Below, piece after piece: positions 20,858-36,640 of a stretch of DNA of 42,559 bases. Source of the DNA: a bacterium (lineage in GTDB: Bacteria > Patescibacteriota > 4484-211 > GCA-002791395); NCBI GenBank assembly GCA_027002475.1, contig JALWZS010000039.1, forward strand, positions 1 to 42,559, written 5' to 3'. The notes beneath the pieces are model-generated. The model was given only the letters and a program-made list of their open reading frames with translations, was not told where the DNA came from and did not search any database. The translations under genes and the position numbers were made by a program. Numbering within the stretch: the first letter of the stretch is position 1; every line of letters starts with the position of its first letter.

Positions 20858-22315
20858 ATGGATGTTTTGTTGACACGCAAACGACAAACGATGTTGCTTG
20901 CTGTACTTGTTCTTAGCTTGTTTGCAGTTATATTTACCCGGTGGGGTGGTGATGGATCTGTTGCTATAGGTGAGGCGCACCGCTTGTTTTTAGGGCAAAA
21001 GATGTATGTAGATTTCCACTCAATTCATATGCCATTAACGAGTTCACTTCTGGCATTACTTTTTAAGTTATTTGGACCTAACACGTGGGTGGTTGAGGCT
21101 TTGGCATCTTTAATATATGTTGCAATCATAGTTTTAGCCTTTTGGTTAGCAAGACAGTTACTAAAAAGTTCGCGGTTAGCGTTTCTTTCGATAATTGTTT
21201 TGTTTGTTGTTTCCTCTATGCCTAGCGTGAACCACAATTGGCTTGCAGTACTTTTGGCTCTAGTGGTTGTGGTTTTGTTAAACCTTGCGCGGCGTAGTGT
21301 TCACCAACGAGACTACTTGGTGGCATCAGGACTTTTCTTGGGTTTTTTGGCGCTAACGACCTTATGGCAATTTAGTGCGGTGGCACTAGGTTTGTTTCTA
21401 TATTTTGTTGCGTATAAAAGAAATCTCAAGCAATTGCTAACTATCTTTTTAGTAAGCGCTGTTATCGTTTCCCTTTTTCTATTAAAACTCAAACTCACTG
21501 GAAGCTTTAGTGCGTTTTTTGATAACGCGATAATGTTTCCATTGAGTGGATACCAAGAAGCGAATGCTCAGTTCCCCGCTAGTGTGTTGTTTTACTCGGT
21601 GGGTATTTTTTATGCATGGTACTTATTTAAAATTAGAGAAAATATTCGTAGCCTACCTAAGGATGAGTTTTTAATAGCTGCAGTGGGACTTGGCTATTGG
21701 CTGTTTTCGTTTTTGAATCCAAGTCAAGGGCATCTGGCGCTAGGTTTTGTCTTTACGGCTCCAGTCTTTATTAAGTCTGCATCTCGTTACTTCCCACGGA
21801 AGTTAGCTGACGTTAGTTTTTTGTCGCCGATTGTTATTGTCACAATAATTTTTTTAGCAGGCATATTCACCGCAGGTGTGCAAACGTTTAAAGTTATGAG
21901 CATCCCGAAGGGTTTGATAAAAACGCCCAGTGGGAGTGCATTGGTGACTACTACACAGGCGGCTGAAACAACTTTGCTAAAAGACAACATGGGGTTGTTT
22001 CAAGGGAAAAAGGTCTTGGTAGTTCCTTGGGCACCGGAGTTAGCTTTTTTTCTAGATTTATATCCTGCTGGAAGGTATGTTTATATGGGTCCAGAACATT
22101 ACTCAAAAGCTATTCAGCAAGAGGTCATATCCGACATCAAGAACAACAAAGACGTGAGAGTTGTTTACGTTGCAAGTCTAACACCAATTTTTCCATATAC
22201 CCCACGGCAAGTAGAGGGGTTTTTGGATACTCATTGTGAACAATTGTTGGCGTTTTGGGAGCAACCATACGATTTAGCCCTACGCTTTGATGGCGTCTGG
22301 GGGAATTGTAGGTAG
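20858..22315 (+). CDS. Polytopic GT-C family glycosyltransferase (GT39/ArnT-like)
   Basis: A 485-residue membrane protein with about ten hydrophobic helices up to residue about 345 and a soluble C-terminal part of 140 residues. The first loop has GDGSVAIGEAHRLFLGQKMYVDF, then HMPLTS, the pattern of lipid-phosphate-sugar dependent GT-C enzymes, in which acidic residues after helix 1 form the active site and the G-x-Y-x-D segment follows. Such enzymes move sugars from polyprenyl-phosphate carriers onto lipids, proteins or polymers outside the membrane. The carrier could come from the polyprenyl synthase in this window, but that link is speculative. A strong hairpin follows the stop. Confidence 0.82.
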   Translation: MDVLLTRKRQTMLLAVLVLSLFAVIFTRWGGDGSVAIGEAHRLFLGQKMYVDFHSIHMPLTSSLLALLFKLFGPNTWVVEALASLIYVAIIVLAFWLARQLLKSSRLAFLSIIVLFVVSSMPSVNHNWLAVLLALVVVVLLNLARRSVHQRDYLVASGLFLGFLALTTLWQFSAVALGLFLYFVAYKRNLKQLLTIFLVSAVIVSLFLLKLKLTGSFSAFFDNAIMFPLSGYQEANAQFPASVLFYSVGIFYAWYLFKIRENIRSLPKDEFLIAAVGLGYWLFSFLNPSQGHLALGFVFTAPVFIKSASRYFPRKLADVSFLSPIVIVTIIFLAGIFTAGVQTFKVMSIPKGLIKTPSGSALVTTTQAAETTLLKDNMGLFQGKKVLVVPWAPELAFFLDLYPAGRYVYMGPEHYSKAIQQEVISDIKNNKDVRVVYVASLTPIFPYTPRQVEGFLDTHCEQLLAFWEQPYDLALRFDGVWGNCR

Positions 22316-22336
22316 TGCTGCTAATGGACGGCGCCT

Positions 22337-22370
22337 GGCCCGGCGCATTGGGCCCTAATGCTTCCGGGCC
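22337..22370 (+). terminator. GC-rich composite hairpin after the GT-C gene
   Basis: GGCCCGG (22337-22343) pairs with CCGGGCC (22364-22370), and GCATT (22345-22349) with AATGC (22357-22361); the loop is GGGCCCT. It is followed by TATTATTTA rather than a clean T run, so it may work as a terminator or as an mRNA-stabilising 3' end. Confidence 0.55.
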
Positions 22371-22567
22371 TATTATTTACCCTCTGAGGGCACTTTTAAT
22401 GTATCGTATCCATTTGGGGTTTGCTTGATATGTTTTTAACATTTGAGTAATAAGATCTAATCTAGTGCTAACAAAGATGACGAATATGTAGCGAGGGCTG
22501 AACAGTAGTCACAAGATTATGTCGACTACCATTGATTGTACAAATAACATTGTTTTTGTATGGGGAA

Positions 22568-22601
22568 GCGTGGCGACTGTCAGTGCCGCCACGCGATTTT
22601 T
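22568..22601 (+). terminator. Intrinsic terminator inside the gene-free region
   Basis: GCGTGGCG (22568-22575) pairs perfectly with CGCCACGC (22587-22594), followed by GATTTTT. The orientation is plus. No gene ends just before it, so it implies either long readthrough from the GT-C gene or a small transcript that starts around 22400-22560. Confidence 0.65.
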
Positions 22602-22609
22602 GTTGGGCT

Positions 22610-22895
22610 GGTATGAGATATGTGATATATCCCATACCTAGTTAACCTGGAACACAGTAGATGCGCTTGCCCATCTATGTCTGTGCCCAGTAGGGATTTG
22701 ACTTGTCCAACGGTTTGTCCGTTGGTGGCTGAGTAGGGCAGCGCTCAGCCCTCACATGGCTTGAGTAACCCCATGAAACCCAAACCATGCTACGCCACCT
22801 GCAGCGCCCACAAGGCAGTCGTAAGCTCCTCATGGACTAGACATGCAGGTCAAGAAACTAATGAGAGTTAACTTCTTGACCTGTACGTCTTTTAG
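22610..22895. ncRNA. Candidate structured RNA, class and strand unknown
   Basis: Consecutive perfect stems: GGTATG/CATACC (22610-22638), CACAG and AGATG paired with CATCT and CTGTG (22653-22685), CCAACGG/CCGTTGG with a 5-nt loop (22707-22725), GGCTGAG/CTCAGCC (22727-22750), CATGG/CCATG (22755-22775), and CAGGTCAAGAA/TTCTTGACCTG (22846-22883), which extends with small bulges to about 22836-22895. Such density without a reading frame suggests a folded RNA of about 290 nt. It matches no RNA family that I can identify by eye. The transcript strand is not determined. Confidence 0.4.
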
Positions 22896-23020
22896 TGGGG
22901 GCATAAAATATAGGCGCTGTAGTGTCCTTATATCAATAAATATATTACCGACAATAACCCTGCAGGCTTGATGATGGTCTTACGGTTCTTTTTTAACAAC
23001 CTTACTCTTCCTGAGAATAG

Positions 23021-23049
23021 CTGACATAGTAGTTGTTTAATGCTATAGT
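23021..23049 (+). promoter_or_regulatory. Promoter of the ATPase-winged helix regulator gene
   Basis: CTGACA (23021-23026), a 17-bp spacer and TATAGT (23044-23049). Transcription would start near 23056, leaving a very short leader that contains AGAAAGG 4 nt before the ATG at 23067. Confidence 0.6.
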
Positions 23050-23066
23050 TGCGGTAGAAAGGTCAT

Positions 23067-24287
23067 ATGAAAGTGTATCCAAGAGAATGGTTTCGAAAAG
23101 AAGCAATAAACTATGCGAGACAGCGAGTCGAGGAAGGTGACTCGTTTCTTGTCATTGGCGTTCCAGGGGTCGGGAAATCCTCTTTTCTAAAAACGCTTGA
23201 TAGAAAAATTGAGCAGCTAGACTATGCCCAGTCTACGATTGTCGACCTAAATGAGGTGCAGAGATTAAGTAACGAAACGGTCATTGCTTACATGAATCAG
23301 TGCCTTACCGGTCGAAATGGTACAGATCTTTTAAAGTTTGCTCAGGAAATAAGGAGTGGGAAAACGAAACATGTTGTTTTGGTCGATAGATTCGAGAAAA
23401 CAGCTTATCGAGTTACTCGCGACTTTTTCGACTTATTGAGGGTTGCTGTTGAAAAGTCTAATCACAAGCTGATCTTTGTTTTAGTCTTAGCCCGTGAGAT
23501 TACTGATCTTTTTGATAAATGGGATATAGACCAGTTCTATTCTTTGGTTAGCCCGTTCACATATTACCTAAAGCCGTTTAATAAGAAGGAAGCAACAGAG
23601 TATACGAAGCTTATTGCTAAAAAACGCAAAGTGCTTCTAAATAATGTGGAAATAGATAGAATCGTTAGTCTTTCTGGTGGGCACAGTAGAATGATAAATG
23701 CATATGTTGCGTATCTGGACTTATTAAATAAGGACTTGCCTTCAGAAGAAAAACTTTCTCGAGCAAATGAAAGCGATGCAGTAATTTACCAGTGTGAGCG
23801 AATATTAGATCACACAACTAAGGCTGAAAATAATACACTTTCACGAATAGCGTTAGGGTTGGATTTGTACGACTCGGACGAATTCAACCTAAGACATCTT
23901 CGTAAGTTAGGTCTGGTGACTAAAGAAAATAAAATTTTTAGTGAACGGTTAGACCGTTATCTAGCAGAAAGGGAACTAAATTCACGTAGCCGCTTGTACC
24001 TTGATGCGAATACGGGAGAAATGTTTTTAGATGGGAACAGGATTGATACTAAATTATCTCCATATGAGTACCGTTTTTTGGAATACATGTACGAGAATGT
24101 AGGACAGATTGTTAGTCGGGAAGATGTCATAGAGGCGGTTTGGGGGGTTGGTAAAGATCAGGGAGTTAGTGACGAGGCGATAGATCAATTGGTCAGTAGA
24201 ATTAGGGAAAAGATAGAAGAGGACAAGAGTAACCCGAAATTTCTTTTAACTGTTAGAGGTAGAGGGTTTCAACTGAAAAAGGACTAA
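23067..24287 (+). CDS. P-loop ATPase fused to a C-terminal OmpR/PhoB-type winged helix
   Basis: A 406-residue regulator. The N-terminal ATPase has Walker A GVPGVGKSS (Lys37) and a Walker B-like KHVVLVDRFEKT, with a lid-like segment LSGGHSRMINAYVAYL near 215, as in AAA/STAND ATPases. Residues about 306-405 are a winged helix of the response-regulator type (LSPYEYRFLEYMYENVGQIVSREDVIEAVWG to LLTVRGRGFQL). No receiver domain is present, so ATP binding, not phosphorylation, would control DNA binding. The gene lies immediately upstream of the copper island; the first operator starts 12 nt after its stop, so it could be an additional or competing regulator of that island. Confidence 0.85.
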   Translation: MKVYPREWFRKEAINYARQRVEEGDSFLVIGVPGVGKSSFLKTLDRKIEQLDYAQSTIVDLNEVQRLSNETVIAYMNQCLTGRNGTDLLKFAQEIRSGKTKHVVLVDRFEKTAYRVTRDFFDLLRVAVEKSNHKLIFVLVLAREITDLFDKWDIDQFYSLVSPFTYYLKPFNKKEATEYTKLIAKKRKVLLNNVEIDRIVSLSGGHSRMINAYVAYLDLLNKDLPSEEKLSRANESDAVIYQCERILDHTTKAENNTLSRIALGLDLYDSDEFNLRHLRKLGLVTKENKIFSERLDRYLAERELNSRSRLYLDANTGEMFLDGNRIDTKLSPYEYRFLEYMYENVGQIVSREDVIEAVWGVGKDQGVSDEAIDQLVSRIREKIEEDKSNPKFLLTVRGRGFQLKKD

Positions 24288-29197: not shown

Positions 29198-29872
29198 ATG
29201 CACATTCTTGTTGTCGAGGACAATAAAGACATTTCACGAAACATAAAAGACTTTCTGGAAGGTAGAGGCTTTGCAGTAACTCAGTCGTTTGATGGAGAGG
29301 ATGCACAGTTTCAAGTGCTTGAAGGAGGCTTTGATGTTGTTGTACTTGATTTGGGCTTGCCTTACAAAAGTGGTTTTGAGGTGTTAAAGTCGGTTCGCGA
29401 TGAGGGTGTTACTACACCAATTATTGTTTTGACCGCATTCTCATCTATCGACAAAAAGATAGAGGGGCTTAACCTTGGGGCAGATGACTATTTGACGAAG
29501 CCGTTTGCAATGGAGGAGCTATTAGCGAGGGTTAATGCAGTAATTCGAAGAAGCGCTGGTCAGCCTTCTCCAGTTGTTAATATAAAGGGGCTAGAAGTAA
29601 ACCCGTCAGCGCATAAAGCGTCATATAATGGACAGCTACTAGATATTCCAGCAAAAGAATTTGCCGTTTTGGAGTTTTTGGTGCGAAACAAGGGAAATGT
29701 GGTGACGCGTTCTATGATCTTGGACCATGTGTGGGGCAGTGACTTTGAAACGCTTTCCAACGTTGTTGATGTTTATATTAATAACCTTCGTACAAAGTTA
29801 AAAAATGCTGGAATGAAAGAAGCGGTTATTGAAACTATTAGAGGAAAGGGTTACGTAATTAGAGATGAGTAG
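29198..29872 (+). CDS. OmpR/PhoB-family response regulator (copper-type)
   Basis: A 224-residue two-component regulator. The receiver domain has the acidic pair in LVVEDNKD, the phosphoacceptor Asp in VVVLDLGLPYKSG, Thr in VLTAFSS and Lys in LTKPFAMEELLAR. The C-terminal winged helix runs from LDIPAKEFAVLEFLVRNKGN to ETIRGKGYVIR. I choose the ATG at 29198 (MHILVVEDN), with its -10 6 nt upstream, over a TTG at 29180. The stop overlaps the kinase gene by 8 nt. Family members in copper islands (CopR/CusR type) bind tandem repeats with a period near 11 bp, which matches the three operators here. Confidence 0.93.
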   Translation: MHILVVEDNKDISRNIKDFLEGRGFAVTQSFDGEDAQFQVLEGGFDVVVLDLGLPYKSGFEVLKSVRDEGVTTPIIVLTAFSSIDKKIEGLNLGADDYLTKPFAMEELLARVNAVIRRSAGQPSPVVNIKGLEVNPSAHKASYNGQLLDIPAKEFAVLEFLVRNKGNVVTRSMILDHVWGSDFETLSNVVDVYINNLRTKLKNAGMKEAVIETIRGKGYVIRDE

Positions 29873-31226
29873 TACGAAATCCAGAAAAGGACTCATTTTT
29901 AAGCTAACGCTGTGGATGGTTGTTTCAATTGCCGCTGCTTTTATAGCGTTTATAGTAATATCTGTTGGCGTTTTATACTCAATTGTTAACGCACAACTAG
30001 ATCACCATGTCGAAACTGTTTTAAACGAGGCTGAGGTGCTATGGCTGAAAGAGCCTGTGGGACAAAACGATTTAATTCAAGGGTTGGTTGCGTCTCGTGG
30101 AATGGTTGTTGTTGTGCTAGCTCCTGATGGAGAGGTGTTGCTAAAAACGTCTAGTCCAGAGATTGATAGCTCGGTTGTTCATAAGATAAAAGAGCATGTA
30201 GCAACAGAGCAACACGATGAACATCAATCGCATATATTCACGTACAAAAACATGCGGTTGGGCGTTAAATTTATTGGCACTAAGACTCCAGGTGAGATTA
30301 TTGCGGTAGCATATTCTTTTTCCCCTTGGCTTCAGGCCATACGGTGGTATGTGGCGTCAATGGTCGTGTTGGCGCTACTATTTATCTTTGGGGTTGGGTA
30401 TTTCGTGCACTCGTTAATACGTCGTTCCTTAATGCCCATCACGGATGTTGTAAATACTGTTCAAAATATATCAACATCAGGCGACTTGGCTAGACGAATA
30501 CCGCTCACTAATAGGCAAGATGAAGTGGGAATGCTGATTGGTGTATTAAATGACATGCTTTCACGTTTGGAACAAAGCTTAAAGGCGCAACAAGCATTCT
30601 TATCCGGTGCCGCTCATACAATAAAAACACCATTGGCTTCAATGCGGACCCATTTGGAGAATCTTTCTTCTAATGGCTCTGACTTTAGTGATGTTACCAC
30701 TTCAATTGACCGGTTAAGTAAGGTGATAGACGATATGTTGTATGCAGTTAACGTTTCTTCGTACAAACCCAAGGAAGAGAAGGTAGATTTGAGTGGTGTT
30801 GTTAAAGATATTTGTGAATTAACAAGTACTTTGGCTAGTGCTAAGGGAGTAAAGCTACAGTGTAAGGTAAAGGAGGGGGTTTTTGTCAAAGGAGATAGAA
30901 ATCTTCTTGTTCGCGCGATACTAAATATTGTCGAAAACGCTACTTACTACACGACTAAGGGGGAGATAGAGATTGTCCTTGATTATGAACAAAAAAATGT
31001 TCGCTTAGAAGTATCTGATACAGGTGTTGGGATGTCAAAAGAGTTTTTAGAGCGTGCTTTTGAGCGGTTTTCTAGAGAAGAGAGTGAAGCAAATAACAAT
31101 GGTACAGGCCTAGGGCTTTCAATAACCAGGGATATCATAAAGGCGCATGGCGGAGAGATTTCTATTAAGTCAGAGAAAGATGTTGGGACAAGTGTTGTTA
31201 TAATTCTCCCTGGTGCACCATCATAG
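29865..31226 (+). CDS. Membrane sensor histidine kinase of the copper two-component system
   Basis: A 453-residue kinase with two membrane helices (about 16-38 and 164-186) that enclose an outside sensor region of about 125 residues with a histidine cluster (EQHDEHQSH), a plausible metal-sensing site. A HAMP linker, the HisKA domain (phosphoacceptor His in GAAHTIKTPLASM), and an HATPase domain (NIVENATYYTT, DTGVGM, NGTGLGLSI) follow. It overlaps the regulator gene, so the two form a pair. The H box reads HTIKTP where HELRTP is usual, a common variant. Confidence 0.93.
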   Translation: MSSTKSRKGLIFKLTLWMVVSIAAAFIAFIVISVGVLYSIVNAQLDHHVETVLNEAEVLWLKEPVGQNDLIQGLVASRGMVVVVLAPDGEVLLKTSSPEIDSSVVHKIKEHVATEQHDEHQSHIFTYKNMRLGVKFIGTKTPGEIIAVAYSFSPWLQAIRWYVASMVVLALLFIFGVGYFVHSLIRRSLMPITDVVNTVQNISTSGDLARRIPLTNRQDEVGMLIGVLNDMLSRLEQSLKAQQAFLSGAAHTIKTPLASMRTHLENLSSNGSDFSDVTTSIDRLSKVIDDMLYAVNVSSYKPKEEKVDLSGVVKDICELTSTLASAKGVKLQCKVKEGVFVKGDRNLLVRAILNIVENATYYTTKGEIEIVLDYEQKNVRLEVSDTGVGMSKEFLERAFERFSREESEANNNGTGLGLSITRDIIKAHGGEISIKSEKDVGTSVVIILPGAPS

Positions 31227-36546: not shown

Positions 36547-36555
36547 GCGTATGTA

Positions 36556-36640
36556 GGGAGTTGTAGGGTTGCGGGTTCGCGGGTTGAGAGTTCGTGGGTT
36601 GGAGAGTTGTAGGGTTGGAGAGTAAAAGAGTGGGTGTGTT
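36556..36640 (+). repeat. GT-rich degenerate repeat with G-quadruplex pattern
   Basis: Imperfect copies of GAGAGTTGTAGGGTTG and of GGGTT units between the divergent def and nth genes. The first part has four GGG tracts (36556-36558, 36566-36568, 36573-36575, 36581-36583) with loops of 7, 4 and 5 nt, which meets the usual G-quadruplex rule. It lies directly upstream of both promoters. Confidence 0.6.

Follow-up and report, generated by a model that had tools for sequence, protein, structure and literature searches.

A Hairpin-Rich Gap without Open Reading Frames as a Candidate Orphan RNA Gene on the Minus Strand

The gap at positions 22316-23066 of the window (the whole stretch of 42,559 nucleotides that was analysed) holds a cluster of hairpins in excess of chance, a core of raised G+C content, and G-U pairs that favour the minus strand. 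The best single reading is that the gap is one orphan structured noncoding RNA gene on the minus strand. We give this reading close to an even chance, and it is about as probable as all its rivals taken together. It is favoured by the low z of minus-strand folding, the G-U bias, the G+C content of the core, a promoter-like site, and the lack of a coding frame, and it is weakened by the lack of a common loop motif, by hairpin clusters of like score that lie across open reading frames (ORFs), and by G-U-biased clusters elsewhere in the genome. A preliminary description of this DNA had proposed a structured noncoding RNA. The proposal still stands ahead of every other single reading, and the gap is not explained by any Rfam family, repeat, or phage or plasmid record; however, the signal comes from the minus strand, and the terminator invoked in its favour does not hold.

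The Gap and Its Genomic Setting

The window comes from contig 39 of a genome of 1,092,082 bases in 48 contigs, 93% complete (contigs 47 and 48 are both exactly 31,825 bases long). No ORF of at least 60 aa overlaps the gap on either strand. The longest has 55 aa, and in this the gap is as expected of a structured RNA gene, which should have no protein-coding frame. When TGA was read as tryptophan, the longest frame in the gap had 88 aa and contained two TGA codons; this candidate was rejected. Eighteen long ORFs of the window end in TAA or TAG and none in TGA, but TGA ends 47 of the 392 ORFs of at least 300 aa in the genome (those in overlapping pieces being counted twice), which means that the genetic code is the standard one.

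The gap had been called exceptional, as 750 bp without a gene. It is indeed gene-free, but it is only the 6th longest of the 64 ORF-free stretches of at least 250 bases (no ORF of at least 60 aa) in the genome. Five stretches are longer: two are situated within or next to rRNA genes, one has a tRNA, one has a fragment of LSU rRNA, and the last (L173, 857 bases) shows neither an Rfam match nor strong structure; a long gap of this plain kind therefore also exists in the genome. Several other hairpin-rich gaps are the loci of the tmRNA, the RNase P candidate, tRNA, or rRNA, and an RNA gene is therefore a natural interpretation of 22316-23066 as well. A degenerate short GAGTTRGA-like repeat occurs across the gaps of the genome, at 36554-36640 of the window and at over 20 further loci, among them L188:13295-13425.

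The G+C content of the core, 22562-22905, is 51.7%, compared with 42% in the window, 41.5% and 36.6% in the two flanks of the core, and 42.3% in the other 63 ORF-free gaps pooled. A core-sized stretch with at least 51.5% G+C was found in 2 of these 63 gaps, one in the 16S rRNA gene and one with the stray LSU rRNA fragment. Sorting intergenic regions by length and G+C content is also the first step of a published pipeline for the discovery of noncoding RNAs, as outlined in PMC11109978. The LSU rRNA fragment (L142:17405-17502, on contig 21) stands alone outside the rRNA operon in a 771-base ORF-free gap; it corresponds to positions 1071-1168 of the Rfam model with 72 bits, and over 61 bases it agrees at 95% identity with the complete 23S gene in L178.

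On the left, the gap is bordered by a putative PMT_2-like glycosyltransferase gene at 20858-22315 on the plus strand (E 4.9e-5, just under the cut-off of Pfam), and on the right by a regulator gene at 23067-24287, also on the plus strand, which encodes an AAA/STAND-like ATPase with a C-terminal winged helix. PADLOC gave nothing but weak matches, those of the regulator, and the regulator had no match when used as query in viral contigs. The neighbourhood looks chromosomal, with a sortase, glycosyltransferases, two-component systems, and a P-type ATPase whose best named relatives are from Patescibacteria (54% identity). The class of the source genome is represented by 8 genomes in the collection, and the nearest genomes available belong to other genera. 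Homologues were found in 6 of the 8 for the regulator, mostly of its C-terminal domain, and in 5 of the 8 for the glycosyltransferase, the genome itself being counted in both cases. The 12 homologue loci examined offered three ORF-free gaps of at least 120 bases, of which the best z was -2.4.

A long gap with inverted repeats could be what is left of a mobile element, a phage, or a plasmid; a match to a mobile-element remnant had been named in the preliminary description as an outcome that would overturn its proposal. We regard this origin as very improbable, considering that the gap is single copy in the genome, that neither the 50,697 phage records nor the 72,556 plasmid records searched contain a match, and that the four small ORFs tested gave no match in NCBIfam or PHROG. 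Two exact patterns also gave no match in viral contigs.

Hairpins of the Gap

Hairpins were counted at a score of at least 15, with G-T and A-C mismatches scored alike so that neither strand was favoured. The gap has 10 hairpins with a summed score of 216. In 100 dinucleotide shuffles the number of hairpins averaged 2.75 and never exceeded 7, and the summed score averaged 46 and never exceeded 127. The packed stems reported from a first inspection are thus present where they had been placed, and beyond chance.

Read on the minus strand, the row begins with hairpin a (22839-22890; 19 Watson-Crick and 3 G-U pairs with 1 mismatch), a 23-nt inverted repeat (22839-22861/22868-22890) within which the CAGGTCAAGAA stem sits. 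It is followed by hairpin b (22806-22837; 7 Watson-Crick and 3 G-U pairs) and hairpin c (22755-22789; 10 Watson-Crick and 2 G-U pairs), the G-U pairs of all three being those of the minus strand. Hairpin d (22727-22750) is the GGCTGAG stem, with arms at 22727-22733/22744-22750, and hairpin e (22707-22725) the CCAACGG stem, with arms at 22707-22713/22719-22725; each has 7 pairs. Hairpin f (22647-22690), a longer stem with internal loops, came from the energy fold only, while a to e, g, h, and i were seen in the hairpin count. The last three are hairpin g (22610-22638; 11 Watson-Crick pairs and 1 G-U pair), hairpin h (22568-22594; 9 Watson-Crick pairs and 1 G-U pair), and hairpin i (22501-22533; 8 Watson-Crick and 2 G-U pairs), which may form the 3′ end of the RNA. 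When the loops of the gap hairpins were compared by eye, no common motif was seen.

The cluster ranks 3rd in the genome by hairpin score over 360 nt, and the two higher clusters overlap ORFs. Clusters of like score are present elsewhere in the genome, several of them overlapping ORFs. Very long hairpins, of 16 and 24 Watson-Crick pairs, are near neighbours at L190:9601-9883, for the most part in the space between ORFs.

Strand of the Structure Signal

Folding of the whole gap gave z -8.8 for the minus strand versus -3.7 for the plus strand (20 shuffles each), and 22540-22930 on the minus strand gave z -7.3 (100 shuffles). The window was also scanned on both strands in pieces of 200 nt with a step of 100 bases and 20 shuffles each. 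The lowest z of the scan was -8.5, for 22501-22700 on the minus strand, the plus strand of the same stretch having -2.3; the next pieces on the minus strand had -5.8 and -4.7. Over most of the core, folding of the plus strand was only slightly better than chance. Other pieces of low z fall in coding sequence (e.g., 29801-30000), and z alone is therefore no proof. A structured RNA gene should fold more stably than expected by chance and do so on one strand in particular, and the gap does this on the minus strand.

In the eight hairpins of the core (22500-22905) there are 12 G-U pairs on the minus strand versus 1 on the plus strand, and 12 versus 2 in the whole gap. Given the local composition, 12 of 13 has a binomial probability of 0.0008, and 12 of 14, with the composition of the core, one of 0.003. 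Among 2713 tiles of 400 bases taken from the genome, 2 had an imbalance of at least 9 and neither of them a hairpin score of at least 120, a rough comparison, as fixed tiles split the hairpin cluster of the gap. A marked imbalance was seen in other clusters found with sliding windows, 10:2 in L202 and 1:8 in L176. The evidence that the minus strand is the strand under selection is good but not overwhelming. The G-U bias is also of use as a single-genome test for the strand of an orphan RNA without homologues.

The bias bears on the serious rival to an RNA gene, namely, that the gap is a nonfunctional spacer whose palindromes arose by quasi-palindrome mutation at the level of DNA or from decayed insertions. 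Palindromes formed in DNA should not favour G-U pairs on one strand, yet here they stand at 12 to 1, and the raised G+C is confined to the core. On the other hand, a spacer would agree with the lack of conservation found, with the lack of a terminator in the scan, and with the presence of comparable hairpin clusters at other places in the genome, some of them spanning ORFs. Weighing these points, we hold such a spacer to be somewhat unlikely.

Search for Known RNAs and Relatives

The covariance-model search against known families that a new RNA called for gave no match to the gap in Rfam 15, neither at the gathering cut-offs nor at E ≤ 5 with permissive filters; the Rfam scan covered about 438 kb of the genome, the window included. 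Motif patterns for an SRP-like or RNase P-like core also found nothing in the window. The lack of an Rfam match carries less weight than it normally would, because the RNase P RNA candidate of the same genome (L137:16-304, minus strand, contig 16), which carries a GAGGAAAGTC stretch, scores 17.4 bits against an Rfam cut-off of 100. In none of the 8 class genomes does RNase P RNA reach the cut-off, five relatives having 77-96 bits, and SRP RNA (RF00169) was found in 0 of the 8, the control being positive in 11 of 14. A possible SRP-like stretch lies at L132:3647 on the minus strand, beside a tRNA (by a motif pattern).

These scores leave some room for a very divergent member of a known family that the Rfam models would miss, which seems improbable. 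The E ≤ 5 setting that did detect the RNase P candidate found nothing in the gap, the tmRNA (L194), the RNase P candidate (L137), and a tRNA (L188) have their loci elsewhere in the genome, and the core motifs mentioned above are lacking.

Relatives were sought by DNA and by structure. The gap found only itself by blastn in 58 relatives, as did 22500-22930 in 379 genomes of the phylum. When 22550-22910 was compared with the 8 genomes of the class at E ≤ 10, it gave besides itself only short stretches at E 0.02 or worse, which were taken as noise. Two single-sequence covariance models were used, R1 with hairpins d-h (one sequence entered twice) and R2 with hairpins a-c. R1 had one match in 286 genomes, the genome itself. 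At E ≤ 10 in 38 genomes it matched two others, G001 with 12.3 bits, for the most part within a sigma-factor-like ORF, and G034 over 20 bases, and on pieces of its own genome one 12.3-bit match about 50 bases from a tRNA (L151); all three were considered noise. R2 gave three other genomes at E 4-8 among the 38, which were discarded, and no match on pieces of its own genome. The published literature that was searched held nothing on this region. With no homologue by DNA or structure there is no conservation or covariation to draw on, which counts against an RNA gene, and with no detectable relative the existence of a real RNA would not be confirmable from the sequence alone.

Transcription Signals

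A promoter-like site on the minus strand at 22907-22936 (TTGATA-18-TATATT, 10 of 12 consensus matches) suggests a start near 22900. A second, on the plus strand at 23021-23049 (CTGACA-17-TATAGT), lies just upstream of the regulator gene 23067-24287 and fits it. Three promoter-like sites were found in the gap region versus 1.5 expected, so each is weak evidence.

An intrinsic terminator had been placed at 22568 and taken to imply a transcript that is not a protein gene. What is found there is hairpin h, followed on the plus strand only by a short T-run, GATTTTTG. The terminator scan of the gap region found none on either strand, and the argument fails with it. The tmRNA of the same genome has a GC-rich hairpin and a T-run downstream; the lack of a minus-strand terminator thus disfavours a discrete RNA on that strand.

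The T-run after hairpin h agrees with another possibility, that the hairpins belong to a plus-strand 3′ UTR of 20858-22315 with terminator or insulator function, perhaps halting convergent transcription. Two weaker hairpins at 22331-22372 on the plus strand, directly after the stop codon of that gene, may be its 3′ end signal and would also suit it. Nevertheless, one or two hairpins would be enough for this role, the plus strand folds only slightly beyond chance over most of the core, and no terminator passes the scan; we consider a 3′ UTR unlikely to account for the gap.

The Candidate RNA

If the gap is an RNA gene of the minus strand, transcription would start near 22900, divergently from the regulator gene at 23067, and would run convergently towards the gene at 20858-22315. 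The product would have about 330-400 nt and possibly end at hairpin i. Its fold would be a linear series of eight or nine largely independent hairpins without a closed multibranched core. Such an anatomy would suit a regulatory or protein-binding RNA, acting through its hairpins and linkers, better than a ribozyme. The boldest form of this reading, to which we give somewhat less than even chances, is a narrowly distributed noncoding RNA of that size and of a new family, in a poorly modelled lineage of small uncultured bacteria. If it proves to be transcribed, the candidate would add a new RNA family to a lineage in which the present models detect RNAs poorly.

The gap shares with the candidate structured RNAs of long, G+C-rich bacterial intergenic regions presented in PMC11109978 its length, G+C-richness, lack of ORFs, strong predicted stems, and lack of a known family. 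It differs from them in being a single sequence, whereas the motifs presented there have several representatives and mostly covariation.

Sponge RNAs of the CsrB/RsmZ type are arrays of hairpins with a repeated GGA-type loop motif. The candidate resembles them in its linear row of independent hairpins and in a similar total length, but it has no repeated loop motif by eye and no Rfam match.

The tmRNA, RNase P candidate, and tRNA loci of the genome are likewise long, ORF-free, and hairpin-rich, but unlike the gap they are recognised by Rfam models (RNase P weakly). A 110-nt tRNA match at L142:15689-15798, probably intron-bearing, lies in a gene-poor and hairpin-rich region.
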